Shown here one piece after another: positions 29,533 to 38,925 of a stretch of 64,000 bases of DNA (positions are counted from its first letter, which is position 1; every line of letters starts with the position of its first letter). The DNA comes from Synergistaceae bacterium (GTDB lineage: Bacteria > Synergistota > Synergistia > Synergistales > Aminobacteriaceae), in the NCBI GenBank assembly GCA_017443985.1, contig JAFSXR010000060.1:1-64000 (forward strand), read 5' to 3'. Made by a program: the position numbers and the translations under genes. The notes under the pieces are model-generated. The model searched no databases. It saw only the letters and a program-made list of their open reading frames with translations, and was not told the origin of the DNA.

Positions 29533-31002
29533 CTAAATCTTAAAAGGAATTTCAGGAAGCGTCAATTTTTGTTGAGGCTTATAAATTCCCGTCTCTGTCA
29601 AATTCTCGTTAATCTTTCCTTCGAGGTCCTGCAGGTCTCCGACGGCGTGAGCAGCAACTACAGCATTAAGAGCCAACGCTCCGCCGGTCTTTAACGTAAC
29701 TGTCTCGGCTTGAATCATGTCGGCCTTAATTTGATTCCATAGCGGGTCTTTGCTTCCGCCTTCGGTGATTATAACGCGGTCAACAGGAGTTCCGGCCTTG
29801 CGCGAACGTTCAGCGATCTCTGAATATTCTCCTGCGATTGCCTCAAGAACTGCACGCCACAAAATAAATTGGTTAGTGTTCATGGTCATGTTTATGAAAC
29901 AGCCGTGAACATCGCGGAAGCCTTCAGGGCCTCCCGTCAGCCATGCCAAAAATCTTACGCCTTCAGAGCCGTTCGGAAGTTTTGAGGCTCCGTCGCTGAG
30001 ATATTTATAATAACTGTCGTCGCCCGGCCTGTTGCAGACGTTATCCCTGAACCAGCGCAGAGCAAGTCCGCCCGTTCTTACAAAGCCCCAATAAAAATAA
30101 GTGCCCGGCAAAGTTCCCGAATTAAAAATTAATCCGCTGCCCTTTTTGCTCAGACCCGGAATAATTCCGCCCGTCGAGATGCAGAACATTGAACACGTCC
30201 CTGCAACGTCAACGGCGTGGCCCGGTTCATAAACTCCGCAGGCCAGAAGAGACTGCATTGTGTCTCCTGCCCCTGCGCAGATTTTTATTCCTTCGGGCAG
30301 TCCCGTAAGCTCCGCGCATTCTTTTGAGAGAGTGCCGATTACGTCATAAGGCTTTTTAATTTCGGGCATTAATTTTTTATCAATTCCAAGAATTTTTAAC
30401 TGCTCGTCCGACCATTCTTTTTTAATGACGTTGTAGCCAAGCCCCCAGCCCGACATCGCGCCCCAGTCTATGAAAGCGTCATCGGCCTTTAATCCTGCAA
30501 GCCTCATCAAAATATACGGGGCATTGTGAACAAATTTTTTAACGTCTTTAATATTCGGCGAATTTTTTATCAGCCATCTTGCGTGCATTGCGGGGAACAA
30601 GCAAAGCGGTTCAGGGTTGCCCGTCTCCTCTGCCCATATGCCAAGATTTAATTTTGCAAGCTCGTCCGCGTCCTCTTGAGTTCTTGAGTCAAGATAATTT
30701 ATATAAGGCGTTATCGCTATGCCTTCCTCATTAATTCCGGCAATGCCGCAGATAATTCCATCGCCCATTATTGCGCGTATTGAATTAACATCTAAATTTT
30801 TTTCGCGCATTATTTCAACACAGCGTCCCGCGCCCTTTAATACAAGTTCAAAATATTCATGGACGTTCATTTGTACCCAGCCGCTTTGAGGATAATATAA
30901 GGTCGTGGGATTTACGGCGGCAGCCGCCTGTTTCCCTTCTTCATCATAAACTGCAACTTTAACGCTCTGTGTTCCTGCGTCAAAGCAAAGATAATAATTC
31001 AT
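29533..31002 (-). CDS. FGGY-family carbohydrate kinase (xylulokinase-like)
   Basis: ATP-dependent sugar kinase. CFDAGTQSVKVAVYDEEG at the N-terminus is the phosphate-1 loop, GAGDTMQSLLACGVYEPG and EGGSKDPLWNQIKADM form the adenosine-binding part of the second actin-like lobe. 489 aa fits xylulokinase/gluconokinase/erythritol kinase types; exact sugar not predictable. GGAGGTG lies about 9 nt before the ATG. No sugar isomerase or transporter is adjacent. Right neighbour is the AT-rich RiPP island, separated by a strong inverted repeat. Confidence 0.88.
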   Translation of the reverse strand: MNYYLCFDAGTQSVKVAVYDEEGKQAAAAVNPTTLYYPQSGWVQMNVHEYFELVLKGAGRCVEIMREKNLDVNSIRAIMGDGIICGIAGINEEGIAITPYINYLDSRTQEDADELAKLNLGIWAEETGNPEPLCLFPAMHARWLIKNSPNIKDVKKFVHNAPYILMRLAGLKADDAFIDWGAMSGWGLGYNVIKKEWSDEQLKILGIDKKLMPEIKKPYDVIGTLSKECAELTGLPEGIKICAGAGDTMQSLLACGVYEPGHAVDVAGTCSMFCISTGGIIPGLSKKGSGLIFNSGTLPGTYFYWGFVRTGGLALRWFRDNVCNRPGDDSYYKYLSDGASKLPNGSEGVRFLAWLTGGPEGFRDVHGCFINMTMNTNQFILWRAVLEAIAGEYSEIAERSRKAGTPVDRVIITEGGSKDPLWNQIKADMIQAETVTLKTGGALALNAVVAAHAVGDLQDLEGKINENLTETGIYKPQQKLTLPEIPFKI

Positions 31003-31022
31003 TTAGAAAAAAACACCTCCGA

Positions 31023-31069
31023 AACAAAATTATATACTAAAAACTCCTATTATAATGGAGTTTTTAGTA
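31023..31069 (-). terminator. terminator of the RiPP maturation operon
   Basis: Perfect 13-bp stem TACTAAAAACTCC/GGAGTTTTTAGTA (31035-31047 with 31057-31069, 9-nt loop), 75 nt past the radical SAM stop. On the minus strand it is followed by a T-rich tract (AATTTTGTTT). It also marks the left edge of the AT-rich island. Confidence 0.7.
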
Positions 31070-31143
31070 CGTAATATAAATTTATAAAAGGAGTTTGGCT
31101 ATTGTTAAGTTTATTTTTTTGATTATCTTACTTAAAATATTTT

Positions 31144-32262
31144 TTATGTATTCGTAAGAGCAATATTTATGTTTGTGCGATATTTATCATATTTGCGTTT
31201 AGAAAATTCTTCAGTCCTTAATAAAGAAAGCTCACAATATTCTTTACACGGTTTCGTATAGCTTCCAGTCGAAAGGTAGTTTATTATTGGACATGGACTA
31301 CATATATGTATTCTCGGACATTTTGCACACACATAATCTTGTGGAGCTACCATGTAAGCATACTCTTCAATATACTTTTGCCATATATAGCTAAGATCAT
31401 GCTCCATAATATTATAGGATTTTAGGCGCATTTTATTACATGGACTTACATAACCTAAACTATCTATATAACATAAAGTTGAAGCCACATTACAGGTAAA
31501 AACAGGTACTTTATCAGCGTTTATAAAACAATTATCATTACAAATATTATTAGCGAATACTCTGATTGTCTGTTCATATTGAGTTTCAATAGACAAAATC
31601 TCTTCATTTGCAAGGCGATGTTTTATTGCCTCACTACTCCCCTGTAACGTTGGAAATATTTCAAAATTATATTTGAATTTTCCTCCGTTTTGTATAGCAA
31701 AATCTTCAGCTTCGAAAAAATCCATATAATTTTCTCTTAGTCCAATGAATTTAAGTTCCATATCGAGATCAGCGTTTCGTAACATGTTTACTCCAGCTAG
31801 AAATTTTTCAAAACTTCCTCTAATACCTGTAACCCTTTCATATGTTCTAGCAGATATACCATAAACACTAATACTAACTGTTGCAGGAGGATATTCTTCA
31901 AAAATTTTTACTATCTCAGGAGTAAGCATAGTAATATTAGTTAATAACTCTATGATAAAACCCTTTTTTTTAGCGTAAACATAGATATCTGAAAAATCTG
32001 CCCTACTCAAAATTTCTCCACCTGTCATATAAAGCACAAGAATACCAGCATCAAAAAGTTTATCAATAATGAATTTCCACTTATCTGTAGGTAATAATTG
32101 TTGAGTCGGGTAATCTTTCATATAACAATGGACACACTGTAAATTACATTTAGGTGTGAGTTCAAGTCCTGCTACAAACGGATGACGAATTTTTTCCCAA
32201 TATTTAAGCTGAGTATCTTGTATTGACGAATATACCCCTCTGCTTAATTCTTCATCTCGCAT
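31144..32262 (-). CDS. radical SAM/SPASM peptide maturase
   Basis: 372 residues. The radical SAM cluster motif is CNLQCVHC (C39, C43, C46), followed by the SAM-binding MTGGEIL (79-85). The C-terminal SPASM domain has cysteines at 241, 245, 257, 264, 275, 312, 315, 321, 324, 339 and 343, including YVSPCNK and CAKCPRIHICSPC, enough for two auxiliary [4Fe-4S] clusters. SPASM enzymes modify short ribosomal peptides (thioether, cyclophane and related C-X bonds). Last gene of a three-gene minus-strand operon; starts 19 nt inside the PqqD-like gene with AAGGAG 11 nt upstream. Codon use is strongly AT-biased compared with flanking genes. Reaction on this substrate is not predictable. Confidence 0.9.
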   Translation of the reverse strand: MRDEELSRGVYSSIQDTQLKYWEKIRHPFVAGLELTPKCNLQCVHCYMKDYPTQQLLPTDKWKFIIDKLFDAGILVLYMTGGEILSRADFSDIYVYAKKKGFIIELLTNITMLTPEIVKIFEEYPPATVSISVYGISARTYERVTGIRGSFEKFLAGVNMLRNADLDMELKFIGLRENYMDFFEAEDFAIQNGGKFKYNFEIFPTLQGSSEAIKHRLANEEILSIETQYEQTIRVFANNICNDNCFINADKVPVFTCNVASTLCYIDSLGYVSPCNKMRLKSYNIMEHDLSYIWQKYIEEYAYMVAPQDYVCAKCPRIHICSPCPIINYLSTGSYTKPCKEYCELSLLRTEEFSKRKYDKYRTNINIALTNT

Positions 32263-32552
32263 TTATGTATCCACTCCTTATTTATAAGTTCTTTTACAAA
32301 ATTATTAACATCTGACAAAATTTCTTCATGTTTTACTTTTGTGTTAGGATCAAGTTTTGTCTCAAGTTCTATAGTAATATCTTCAACCGTGAATTGTTTA
32401 CGTCCTACGATTGAAGATAAAATAGCATAAGCAATTTCATTAAGACGATCGATATTTCTATTTCGATAAAAATATTTGTCATGTATATCTATGACAAAAT
32501 ATATTCCAGCGATATTACGCAAAACAAGTCCCTCCTTAACTTCATATATCAT
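32244..32552 (-). CDS. PqqD-like RiPP recognition element protein
   Basis: 102 residues with the winged-helix-type PqqD fold: N-terminal strands (EGLVLRNIAGIYFVIDIH), helix with RLNEIAYAILSSIVG, and a wing/helix region (FTVEDITIELETKL, ILSDVNNFVKELINKEWI). Stand-alone PqqD proteins bind the leader of a precursor peptide and hand it to the radical SAM enzyme. GGAGGAG lies 6 nt before ATG 32552. Overlaps the unknown 293-aa gene by 11 nt and the maturase by 19 nt, so the three are translationally coupled. Confidence 0.85.
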   Translation of the reverse strand: MIYEVKEGLVLRNIAGIYFVIDIHDKYFYRNRNIDRLNEIAYAILSSIVGRKQFTVEDITIELETKLDPNTKVKHEEILSDVNNFVKELINKEWIHKCEMKN

Positions 32553-33423
32553 TATTATCTCCTCCTACAAAAGGTTTACAATAAATATTAATGCTCATCA
32601 TGTTATTTGTATCACAACCAAGAGAAAACTCACGAAGAAATAATCTATTTTGTCGTATTAGTTTCTTGACATTTTGTCTTTGAGATTGTTCAATCATCAT
32701 AAAATTAAAAATTTTGTCTAACAATGTATCAATATTGACTGTATTTTCAGTTATAATGAAATATATTTTATATTTTGTTTCCCCAGTTTGCTTATCATAA
32801 TTCCAAGAAACCATATAAACATGAACCCCTAATTTAACGTAATCTTTTGCCTCTAAAACCAATTTTTTATATATAGTAATTCCACTTTCAGAAATTATTT
32901 TCAGAGCTTCTTCATCTAAAAACAACATAGAACCTTCATGATTCTCATAAAACATTCTAAAATACAATTTCAAGCAATCATAAGTAGTATATTTATTTTC
33001 AAAACCGATAAACCATATACCTTGAGACAAATAATTATCTTTTCTTCGTTCAAGAGAAAAATACTCCATTGCTTTCTGCTCATAATCCTTATCTAACCAA
33101 TTTTGTATTATTAAAAAACGAGGATCATGCTCAGAAATATTACGAAGCTTATATTCATAAGAATATTTAATGTCGCTAGAATATTTTGTACTATGAAACA
33201 GTACTAAATTATCATTTACAAGGAAAGAAGTCGTATCAAAAGAGCGTAAAAAAGACAAAGGCGTGTTATCACCTGCCAGAAGATTATTAATATAAAAAGA
33301 GGTCTTAATACCATTTAAGGATATATTAAATGCGATATAATCTAATACACCTTTCTTTTCAATGTTAGGAATTAAACTTTGCATATGACTAAAATCATAA
33401 AATAAATTATTACTAGCAATCAT
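32542..33423 (-). CDS. unknown RiPP-cluster protein
   Basis: 293 residues from ATG 33423 (GGAG 8 nt upstream; a GTG at 33432 is less likely). No family recognised. No signal peptide or membrane segment. Pattern is alpha/beta with several long hydrophobic strands near the C-terminus (KLYFRMFY, HVYMVSWNYD, KYKIYFIITEN, SLGCDTNNMMSINIYC), a layout that loosely recalls ABBA-fold prenyltransferases, but no motif proves it. Peptide chaperone or second tailoring enzyme are other options. First gene of the maturation operon; AT-rich, heavy use of ATA and AGA codons. Confidence 0.75.
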   Translation of the reverse strand: MIASNNLFYDFSHMQSLIPNIEKKGVLDYIAFNISLNGIKTSFYINNLLAGDNTPLSFLRSFDTTSFLVNDNLVLFHSTKYSSDIKYSYEYKLRNISEHDPRFLIIQNWLDKDYEQKAMEYFSLERRKDNYLSQGIWFIGFENKYTTYDCLKLYFRMFYENHEGSMLFLDEEALKIISESGITIYKKLVLEAKDYVKLGVHVYMVSWNYDKQTGETKYKIYFIITENTVNIDTLLDKIFNFMMIEQSQRQNVKKLIRQNRLFLREFSLGCDTNNMMSINIYCKPFVGGDNNDI

Positions 33424-33460
33424 AAAATGCACTCCTTTTTAATTTATTATTTTAATATAA

Positions 33461-33466
33461 AGTATA
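33461..33466 (-). promoter_or_regulatory. candidate -10 of RiPP maturation operon
   Basis: TATACT on the minus strand about 38 nt before ATG 33423; no clear -35. Divergent from the precursor promoter. Confidence 0.35.
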
Positions 33467-33512
33467 TAAGAAATCAAATCATTACATCTCTAAATAAAAT
33501 AATTACTCATCC

Positions 33513-33540
33513 TTGAAAGATATTATTTTTATGATAAAAT
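33513..33540 (+). promoter_or_regulatory. promoter of the precursor peptide gene
   Basis: TTGAAA (33513-33518), 16-nt spacer, TGATAAAAT extended -10 (TAAAAT 33535-33540). Start near 33547, about 30 nt before the ATG. A dedicated promoter allows the substrate to be made in excess over the enzymes. Confidence 0.65.
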
Positions 33541-33577
33541 TATAAAAATAATATATGGAAAGGAAGTGTTGATTAAT

Positions 33578-33703
33578 ATGGCTTACAGTAAACCTGAGAT
33601 TACTACTATTAAAATTGAGCAACAAGAAGTTTCTTATGACAGCGATCAAGCTTCTGGTTGCCAGAGTTCTTGTTGCTTCACCAGAGAAAGTAGCTCTTGG
33701 TAG
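33578..33703 (+). CDS. Cys-rich RiPP precursor peptide (41 aa)
   Basis: Short ORF divergent from the maturation operon, with AAGGAAG 11 nt before the ATG. N-terminal leader begins MAYSKPEITTIKIEQQEV, the KPxIxxIxIE type seen in leaders bound by PqqD-like elements. The C-terminal core after about residue 25 holds C28, C32 and C33, is rich in Ser/Gln, and ends in Trp41 (CCFTRESSSW in short). Own promoter and own terminator. The three cysteines make a sactipeptide/ranthipeptide-type thioether product the first guess; the FTR triplet (34-36) also fits an aromatic-X-Arg cyclophane site. No cleavage site such as double Gly is obvious and no transporter gene is next to it. Confidence 0.8.
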   Translation: MAYSKPEITTIKIEQQEVSYDSDQASGCQSSCCFTRESSSW

Positions 33704-33737
33704 TATTTAGTTGATATAATTGAACGTTAGTTTTAGG

Positions 33738-33763
33738 GAGGGGGCTGTAATGCGTCCTCTTTT
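33738..33763 (+). terminator. terminator of precursor gene
   Basis: GAGGGGGC/GCGTCCTC stem (8 positions, one G-U and one mismatch), loop TGTAAT, followed by TTTT; 35 nt past the precursor stop. Confidence 0.6.
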
Positions 33764-33807
33764 ATATTGATTATTCTCCAGCATAAACGTAGAGCTATTG
33801 TAAGTTT

Positions 33808-34065
33808 CTACTTACTATCAAATCTATGGTAAGTTGAAGTACTCAAAAGCAACGGGAAGCGCGAAATCGCATGACTTGTCGCTGACGTTATCGCGTCGAG
33901 CCCAAGTTTCTCAAGCTCGCTTGAAGTTTGCCCTGTCTCACCTGCATAAAATTCCGCCCACGTCATATCCGTTGTAGCGTAATAGTCGGCGGCGCAGCTG
34001 ATACTCGATAATGAGAGAATAAAAATAAAAATTACTGTAAAGAAAAACTTTTTACTTTTACCCAT
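33808..34065 (-). pseudogene. short secreted protein, probably truncated remnant
   Basis: 85 residues: signal peptide (FFFTVIFIFILSLSSISCA), then DYYATTDMTWAEFYAGETG and LGLDAITSATSHAISRF. From memory, such a TWAEFYAGE/DAxSSAT N-terminus heads much longer secreted proteins in Synergistota-like genomes; here the frame diverges and stops soon after, next to the AT-rich RiPP island. Ribosome site AAGGAG is intact. It could also be a genuine small secreted protein; I give the remnant reading moderate weight. Confidence 0.5.
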
Positions 34066-34163
34066 ATAAAATTACATCTCCTTATAAAAATTTGTTAGAG
34101 AATTAAAACATAAAAAGTTTGTGGGGTCAAATAAAATTTTCTTGATAATTTTTATTTTTTAAT

Positions 34164-37925: not shown

Positions 37926-37995
37926 TTTACATTCAATAAATTCTAGATTAAAATAATCGGAATGAATTTTTTTAAGAAAGGTGAGATTCAATATT

Positions 37996-38925
37996 ATGGT
38001 AACTAAAAAAACTTTTCGCTTTGTCGTTGCAGTGTTGATGCTTTGCGCGTTAATGTCTTCGTGTGCTTTCGCTGCGTTAGCTCCCAGAGCAATTCATGGC
38101 GGCGTTTTAGGCTATCTTGGGACAACTGAAGACGAATTTCAGGCTGCCGTTGATAATTTCAGCAGAATGTTGCCTGCGTTCTCTTTCGGCTTAAATAATA
38201 GTCCTTTAGCTCAGGAGTACGTAGAATTTTTAATAGCGTTCAGAGATCATCGCCACATCATTCATTTTTATGATAATTTGACTTCAATGTTAATGGCTCT
38301 TAACTCCGGGCGCGTTGATGAAATTTCATTGCCTGAAAGCACGGCAAGATACGTTATGAGGAGCGACCCTGCTTACAGGATACTTTTCACGATTCGTATG
38401 CCCTCAGCAATTTCTTTCGGTTTCCGCGCTGAAGACACGGGGCTTTGCGGAGATTTCAGCAAAGTTATCGAAGCCATGAAAGAGGACGGGACTTTGAAAG
38501 CCCTTGAGGAAAAATACATCAATAACGCTGATAAAAATCCTGAGGCAGTTGCCTTTGAAAATTTCGGTGAGGACGCAGGAAAAATAACAATCGCTATTAC
38601 AGGCGACATGCCTCCGATCGATTTCGTAGCTGAAGACGGAAATCCCGCAGGCTATAACACCGCAGTATTATCTGAAATAGGCAAGAGGCTGAAGAAAAAC
38701 ATTAACGTTATAAACATCGAGGCCGGTGCGCGTTCATCAGCTCTCGTTTCAGGAAAAGCCGACGTAATTTTCTGGTATCGTTCGACAAAGGGAATGGACA
38801 TTCCTGAAGAAACCGGCTTCAAGGGAGAAAATCCTCTTAACGCCGCAATAAAAGACTCTACAGAGGGCGTTATTCTTTCAACTCCTTATTACGAGTGGGA
38901 AAGAACTTTAATGCTCACGAAATAA
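37996..38925 (+). CDS. periplasmic solute-binding protein, family 3-like
   Basis: Signal peptide (FVVAVLMLCALMSSCAFA) and two alpha/beta lobes; GKITIAITGDMPPIDFVAEDGNPAGYNTAVLSEIG is the classic family-3 amino-acid binding start, here in the second half of the protein, and the first half has an SBP-like RDHRHIIHFYDN region with LEEKYINN. Start at ATG 37996 because AAAGGTGAG lies upstream; the GTG at 37981 is within it. No ABC permease genes are adjacent, so it may serve a distant transporter or a sensor. Confidence 0.75.
   Translation: MVTKKTFRFVVAVLMLCALMSSCAFAALAPRAIHGGVLGYLGTTEDEFQAAVDNFSRMLPAFSFGLNNSPLAQEYVEFLIAFRDHRHIIHFYDNLTSMLMALNSGRVDEISLPESTARYVMRSDPAYRILFTIRMPSAISFGFRAEDTGLCGDFSKVIEAMKEDGTLKALEEKYINNADKNPEAVAFENFGEDAGKITIAITGDMPPIDFVAEDGNPAGYNTAVLSEIGKRLKKNINVINIEAGARSSALVSGKADVIFWYRSTKGMDIPEETGFKGENPLNAAIKDSTEGVILSTPYYEWERTLMLTK

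Follow-up and report, generated by a model that had tools for sequence, protein, structure and literature searches.

A compact radical SAM gene island in a Synergistaceae genome and its possible cross-linked and prenylated peptide product

The island and its precursor peptide

The 64,000-nucleotide stretch of DNA analysed here (the window, positions 1 to 64,000 of contig JAFSXR010000060.1, assembly GCA_017443985.1, from a Synergistaceae bacterium) contains a 2.7-kb island with the genes of a putative pathway for a ribosomally synthesized and post-translationally modified peptide (RiPP). A three-gene operon on the minus strand encodes, in this order, a protein of 293 amino acids (aa), a PqqD-like protein and a radical S-adenosylmethionine (SAM) enzyme of the SPASM type, and a divergent plus-strand gene of 41 codons encodes the predicted precursor peptide (Table 1). 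Within the operon, adjacent frames share 11 and 19 bases, and a good ribosome-binding site lies upstream of each of the four genes, all of which are located where a preliminary description of this DNA had put them. The interpretation that we favour, with moderate confidence, is that the island is an acquired PqqD/radical SAM/prenyltransferase pathway whose product is a Cys-crosslinked and also prenylated RiPP.

Table 1. Features of the island, with coordinates in the window
Feature	Position	Strand	Basis or remark
Radical SAM/SPASM peptide maturase (predicted), 372 aa	31144..32262	-	PF04055 and PF13186 over cut-off; alignments; tree
PqqD-like RiPP recognition protein (predicted), 102 aa	32244..32552	-	PF05402 28.6 bits, cut-off 23.4
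293-aa protein, likely ABBA-fold prenyltransferase	32542..33423	-	structure ranking; K152-x-Y154, K219-x-Y221
Precursor peptide (predicted), 41 aa	33578..33703	+	open reading frame; ungapped homology to G865 precursor
Promoter-like site TTGAAA, 16, TAAAAT, TG before	33513..33540	+	upstream of precursor; site scan
Terminator-like hairpin	33736..33763	+	3' of precursor; site scan
12-bp inverted repeat, possible operon terminator	31037..31068	-	about 75 bases past radical SAM gene; by eye

The precursor, MAYSKPEITTIKIEQQEVSYDSDQASGCQSSCCFTRESSSW, has a leader with Y3-S-K-P6-E-I8 within the pattern KPxIxxIxIE and a core with C28, C32, C33 and the terminal W41, which is its only Trp; the leader pattern, the three Cys and the terminal Trp had been described before and were all verified. 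Upstream of the gene lies GGAAAGGAAG, and GTG and TTG codons slightly upstream are possible alternative starts. The hexapeptide Y-S-K-P-E-I matches [Y/W]xxPx[L/V/I/F/A], the motif bound by discrete recognition domains in lasso and LPP peptides (excerpts of PMC13381572). The precursor matches no NCBIfam family at E 1, neither a named sactipeptide family nor NF050043.

The closest relative of the island was found in a genome that we call G865, the sole one with a radical SAM match at E 1e-40 among 391 genomes sampled in the class to which an Oscillospiraceae genome belongs. The genes of its cluster, on contig C33, all run in the same direction and encode a protein of 314 aa, a peptide of 36 aa (MKFEMPTLQILVHEEAARIYGKETCSTDWSGCCYNG), a second radical SAM enzyme, a PqqD protein (PF05402, 40.2 bits) and a radical SAM enzyme with SPASM-type Cys. 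The last of them is the gene of an isopentenyl-diphosphate isomerase of type 1 (NF002995 135.3 bits, cut-off 127; TIGR02150 116.2, cut-off 105.8). From the second radical SAM gene to the isomerase gene, neighbours overlap by 14 bases or are separated by 3 and 2 bases, and a phage-type integrase and a serine recombinase adjoin the cluster. The two precursors align without gaps and are identical at Met1, P6, E14, Y20, S26, S30, C32 and C33, with F in place of the Y of the leader motif in the G865 peptide; their C-termini differ except for C32, C33 and aromatic 34, and the only Trp of the G865 peptide is W29. In shuffling tests the BLOSUM62 score of this alignment was reached in 0 of 20,000 shuffles and the identity count in 72 of 20,000.

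Judged from these alignments, the frame of the precursor is a true gene and is conserved, because the G865 homologue aligns ungapped and lies in a similar neighbourhood. The preliminary description had read the DNA as a compact RiPP island and the precursor as Cys-rich; this is supported, and the conserved short gene that it had asked for in relatives is present in G865. It would be very surprising if the 41-codon frame were no gene at all. The frame is short, and promoter-like sites in the scan are at chance level (17 observed vs 19.6 expected), so that the site upstream of the precursor is no evidence alone; against this stand the conserved, positioned homologue in G865 and a short-frame scan of both strands of the 64 kb, in which the precursor was the sole match to an aromatic-or-His-xxPx-hydrophobic leader with at least two later Cys and a ribosome-binding site. 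A promoter and a terminator had been ascribed to this gene; terminator-like hairpins such as the one 3' of it number four in 3.3 kb vs 0.9 expected.

The radical SAM enzyme and its relatives

The radical SAM enzyme is over the cut-offs of PF04055 (78.2 bits, cut-off 29.5) and PF13186 (22.9 bits, cut-off 21.5) and carries C39-x3-C43-x2-C46 and further Cys at 257, 275, 312, 315, 321, 324, 339 and 343. With the model of PapB, a ranthipeptide-type maturase, it scores 45.1 bits against a cut-off of 340. Matches to the PADLOC viperin and PDC-M38B models were taken as general fold similarity. The G865 enzyme is 33% identical to it (E 4.6e-64).

Around the best 80 of at least 446 radical SAM relatives in the genome collection, 22 precursor-type frames were found in 174 kb near the enzyme vs 14 in 480 kb farther away; 19 of the 22 lie on the enzyme strand, of which 18 were judged credible and one, at locus L072, a chance match. 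The leaders of several relatives resemble YxKPxLxxIELxxEEVxxxGC, near YSKPEITTIKIEQQEVSYDSDQASGC of the window. A tree of 40 radical SAM sequences (from 35 of the 80 loci, two Macrococcoides, one further Streptococcus, the window and G865) joins the enzyme of the window and that of G865 as sisters with support of 99/100 and places the pair inside a clade of 18 rows supported at 99/99, within which the next fork is weak (85/88) and L027 forms a long branch. A YxxP-type precursor occurs nearby in 13 of the 16 other rows of this clade, L015, L027 and L035 being without one. By these comparisons the leader and the radical SAM enzyme are members of a wide YxxP/PqqD/SPASM RiPP clade. The earlier statement that the system could not be placed is narrowed by this clade and by the likely identity of the 293-aa protein given below.

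Systems of the clade with YxxP leaders, from Kiritimatiellota, Chloroflexota, Acidobacteriota, Verrucomicrobiota and Nitrospira, share with the island the leader, a PqqD-like gene, the SPASM-type enzyme and the position in the tree, but differ in their longer cores and in having no prenyltransferase-like gene in a profile search. The SSH-type radical SAM RiPPs (NF050043; Macrococcoides plasmid, Streptococcus) likewise have PqqD, SPASM-type Cys, a precursor of about 40 aa and a KKPxI-type leader, whereas they have two radical SAM enzymes, an ABC transporter, another core, a separate tree clade and, again by profile search, no prenyltransferase-like gene. NF050043 precursors are over cut-off in the SSH-type clusters L004 and L034; the former, on the Macrococcoides bohemicum plasmid NZ_CP079985.1 (4445-8521), comprises PqqD, two radical SAM genes and an ABC transporter.

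Some of the relatives deserve mention for themselves. In the Lachnospiraceae locus L027 (4717-7407) two radical SAM genes flank a 74-aa frame that is PqqD-like by reading, and the second radical SAM protein is extended by about 150 aa at its C-terminus. Five Nitrospira loci (L022, L028, L030, L033, L037) and a Nitrospiraceae locus (L036) combine a radical SAM enzyme of the island's type with a Gly/Cys-rich precursor family of the pattern, approximately, PYxxPxLxxVxLxxEQAILxxCSL. The Elusimicrobiales locus L058 (5440-7014) encodes a 468-aa radical SAM protein whose N-terminal extension may be PqqD-like. Two loci recall LPP clusters, except that a radical SAM enzyme is present: L014 (50-2828), with a radical SAM gene, a YxxP precursor, and an HprK-like kinase and a signal-peptidase-like gene that are both under NCBIfam cut-offs, and L013 (2356-5584), with a radical SAM gene, a YxxP precursor, a PqqD-like gene and, by reading, the same two additional genes.

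The 293-aa protein and the proposed pathway

Prenylation, which the preliminary description had missed, would be the unusual part of the pathway, and it depends on the identity of the 293-aa protein. The protein had been left unassigned, and it indeed reaches the cut-off of no sequence family: at E 10 in NCBIfam and Pfam the only matches are GOLD_2 (0.14) and CPT_N (0.27), both under cut-off, with no prenyltransferase family among them, a cyanobactin prenyltransferase model being presumably present in these libraries. It matches no PDB sequence; the best PDB match of the G865 314-aa protein is a glycosidase at E 0.019, and the two proteins together gave a best E of 0.76. By structure ranking, on the other hand, its most likely identity is that of an ABBA-barrel prenyltransferase, a fold defined by five alpha-beta-beta-alpha units and a ten-stranded barrel. 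Its strands KLYFR, KYKIYFI and SINIYCKP had been judged ABBA-like ahead of the fold search. When two AlphaFold models of the protein were compared with VIA-align, ranks 1-5 for the first were all ABBA prenyltransferases (best 3o2k, FtmPT1, Z 5.1, 3.7 A over 114 residues), and for the second, ranks 1-14, representing ten different proteins, were all ABBA prenyltransferases as well, headed by FtmPT1 (Z 6.7, 4.8 A, 184 residues) and including AmbP3 (5.8), FgaPT2 (5.6), PagF (5.0), PatF (4.8) and KgpF (4.6); the first unrelated row has Z 4.3, and LimF is at rank 20. In the Foldseek list of the second model, chains of CdpNPT, NphB (CL190) and EpzP stand out by low root mean square deviation and higher probability; the list of the first model has CdpNPT at rank 49. 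The models also have helix-hairpin-helix elements at 183-284. The fold assignment rests on ABBA enzymes heading both ranked lists and not on single Z values.

Two further observations concern the same assignment. Isopentenyl-diphosphate isomerase produces dimethylallyl diphosphate (DMAPP), and its presence in the G865 operon points to a prenyltransferase too. Both K-x-Y motifs of the 293-aa protein listed in Table 1 occupy alignment columns common with K-x-Y of the G865 314-aa protein. The partner tyrosines of FgaPT2 are Y189 and Y261. In that enzyme DMAPP is bound by Lys187 and Lys259 (excerpts of PMC11443524). Place, size and colinearity suggest that the 293-aa and 314-aa proteins are kin, the pairwise alignment statistics being insufficient by themselves.

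A number of results weigh against this assignment and the pathway built upon it. The 293-aa protein has no family over cut-off in Pfam or NCBIfam and none in PHROGs or PADLOC, and its G865 counterpart matches nothing in Pfam or NCBIfam. Both models are poor, with a mean pLDDT, the AlphaFold confidence score, of 39.9 for the single sequence and 38.4 when the G865 row was included; with neither did Foldseek return anything at E 0.001, and its top rows are unrelated proteins, e.g., Cas12f. Every VIA-align Z is below 8, so that no single value is probative, there was no decoy protein for comparison, and the prenyltransferases in rows 11-14 for the second model tie with the first unrelated row. VIA-align re-ranks Foldseek candidates only, and two models of one protein are not independent. 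There are four K-x-Y motifs vs 1.65 expected by composition, two of the four being unshared with G865, and the similarity score of the 293-aa and 314-aa proteins is 79 vs 80 and 89 from unrelated proteins among 781 frames. The gene set was found in two genomes only, an isomerase gene is missing from the window island, and PF13186 is unmatched at E 1 by the G865 enzyme, which has the SPASM-type Cys set of the window enzyme.

These weaknesses leave room for a sactipeptide- or ranthipeptide-type island that forms thioethers only and in which the 293-aa protein is an immunity protein, a protease-like partner or a scaffold. We regard this as unlikely, yet as the most serious competitor. Sactipeptides have thioethers from the Cys sulphur to an alpha carbon, ranthipeptides to a carbon other than alpha. 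Three Cys and a SPASM enzyme are what it calls for; the poor models and the missing sequence family of the 293-aa protein suit it, as does a similar leader in the precursor of L058 (MAYNKPEI...), which is weakly similar to sactipeptides of the StsA family (E 1.6e-5; 24.7 bits, below the cut-off of 42). It is opposed by the prenyltransferases at the top of the structural lists of both models and by the isomerase inside the G865 operon. Another possibility, which we consider improbable, is that the substrate of the prenyltransferase is a small molecule, or else a cofactor derived from a RiPP whose peptide is degraded, as in systems like those of PQQ (pyrroloquinoline quinone) or mycofactocin. 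Small aromatics are often substrates of ABBA enzymes (excerpts of PMC3485228), and PqqD and a SPASM enzyme with no adjoining transporter would be in line with such a role, but the neighbouring frames run contain no peptidase or dehydrogenase, and the C-termini of the two precursors diverge outside the three positions named above.

In the pathway that we infer, the type of cross-link, the acceptor, the order of the steps and the release included, the PqqD-like protein would bind the YxxPxI leader and hand the precursor over for modification by the radical SAM/SPASM enzyme. This enzyme would make cross-links from three Cys of the C-terminal core (C28, C32 and C33), by analogy most likely as thioethers. 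The 293-aa ABBA-barrel prenyltransferase would then add a C5 or C10 prenyl group, most likely to the single Trp (W41 in the window, W29 in G865), and host enzymes would remove the leader and release the product, which may serve as a lipidated signal or a bacteriocin. The conserved Tyr20 is the main rival acceptor, and prenylation on Tyr, Cys or another residue is a possible departure from this scheme.

A parallel to such a product is the lanthipeptide prenylated by MppC, an enzyme that prenylates Trp, prefers the macrocyclized peptide and requires the leader: there, too, a thioether macrocycle is combined with Trp prenylation by a leader-dependent ABBA enzyme, whereas the system is cyanobacterial, with a lanthionine synthetase for the radical SAM enzyme and a Nif11-like leader (excerpts of PMC12715784). 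The cyanobactin prenyltransferases PagF, PatF, KgpF and LimF would share with the proposed enzyme the ABBA barrel and peptide substrates; unlike in cyanobactin systems, no cyanobactin-type protease or YcaO was found among the neighbouring frames run, and the 293-aa protein matches no prenyltransferase family. ComQ/ComX and PalQ/PalX resemble the proposed product in the lipidated Trp on a short RiPP, which for PalQ is the C-terminal Trp (excerpts of PMC10853753), but their enzymes are of the isoprene-synthase type, and the PalQ cluster as described has no radical SAM gene. Lasso and LPP systems share the [Y/W]xxPx[L/V/I/F/A] leader (excerpts of PMC13381572) and differ in that, by family searches, none of the island genes encodes a lasso cyclase or a kinase.

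Prenylated RiPPs known to date include cyanobactins, lanthipeptides, lasso peptides and ComX-like peptides (excerpts of PMC10853753 and PMC12715784). A RiPP pairing a radical SAM enzyme with an ABBA prenyltransferase does not appear among the titles and abstract openings listed from the open-access literature, a scope that does not establish absence. The two kinds of enzyme are mentioned only separately in excerpts of PMC8120280, PMC12703449 and PMC11002830, and the main text of a 2026 review of peptide prenylation does not contain the term "radical SAM" (PMC13290415). We would give an even chance to the broader proposal that prenylated radical-SAM peptides are a new RiPP class, in which one leader and PqqD serve both a SPASM enzyme and a diverged non-cyanobacterial ABBA family, some clusters having their own isomerase for the supply of the prenyl donor. 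If so, radical SAM cross-linking and prenylation would together yield a rigid, membrane-seeking peptide from three small enzymes, a prenyltransferase family invisible to sequence profiles would be added, and the system is small enough to be rebuilt on one plasmid.

Distribution, origin and setting of the island

Further relatives were sought in samples of larger groups, except for the sets of 51 and 38, each of which returned one genome, G865 itself. The single hit among 325 genomes at E 1e-45 is the genome of L026, already among the relatives; there was none among 299 genomes from the class of a Streptococcus genome at E 1e-50, none among 210 from the order of a Lachnospiraceae genome at E 1e-45, and none among 397 with the less sensitive 293-aa query at E 1e-4. 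Single-protein scans with the 293-aa protein found no relatives in viral_contigs, genome_contigs or plasmids, the radical SAM enzyme alone and a profile of the radical SAM pair found nothing in viral_contigs, and a scan of plasmids and phages with the G865 314-aa protein was negative at E 1. Weak 293-aa matches in 3 of 16 genomes (E 0.0027-0.22) and in L086 were rejected, one stretch having four stops; by reading, we take the frame in L086 to be akin to a prephenate dehydrogenase fusion and that in L094 to a release-factor methyltransferase.

The G+C content of the island features ranges from 17 to 40% (radical SAM 32%, PqqD 28%, 293-aa gene 26%, precursor 40%), whereas the flanking sugar kinase and PBP2 genes are at 47-48%. 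Within the family, the 293-aa protein occurs in one of 81 genomes at E 0.01, and within the phylum the radical SAM enzyme occurs in one of 185 at E 1e-35, in both cases the source genome alone, whose assembly (1.69 Mb, 76 contigs) is 75% complete. The G+C deviation and the restriction to the source genome among these genomes fit horizontal acquisition of the island from elsewhere. An empty insertion site could not be defined, because in the stretches taken from six same-genus genomes, all with the sugar kinase, there is no PBP2 beside it, nor are there island genes; between 30900-31150 and 33650-34150 there are no shared words of 9 or more bases.

The neighbours of the island are an FGGY sugar kinase, an 85-aa frame without family and PBP2, and, in agreement with the preliminary description, no transporter or protease adjoins it among the ten frames run (25.9-40.0 kb), of which the nearest transport-related one encodes a solute-binding protein (37981-38925). 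No gene for leader removal or export is encoded within the island. The inverted repeat past the radical SAM gene is absent from the list of the terminator scan and is known from direct reading. The 85-aa frame (33808-34065, minus strand), between the island and PBP2, has a signal-peptide-like start and may be a remnant.

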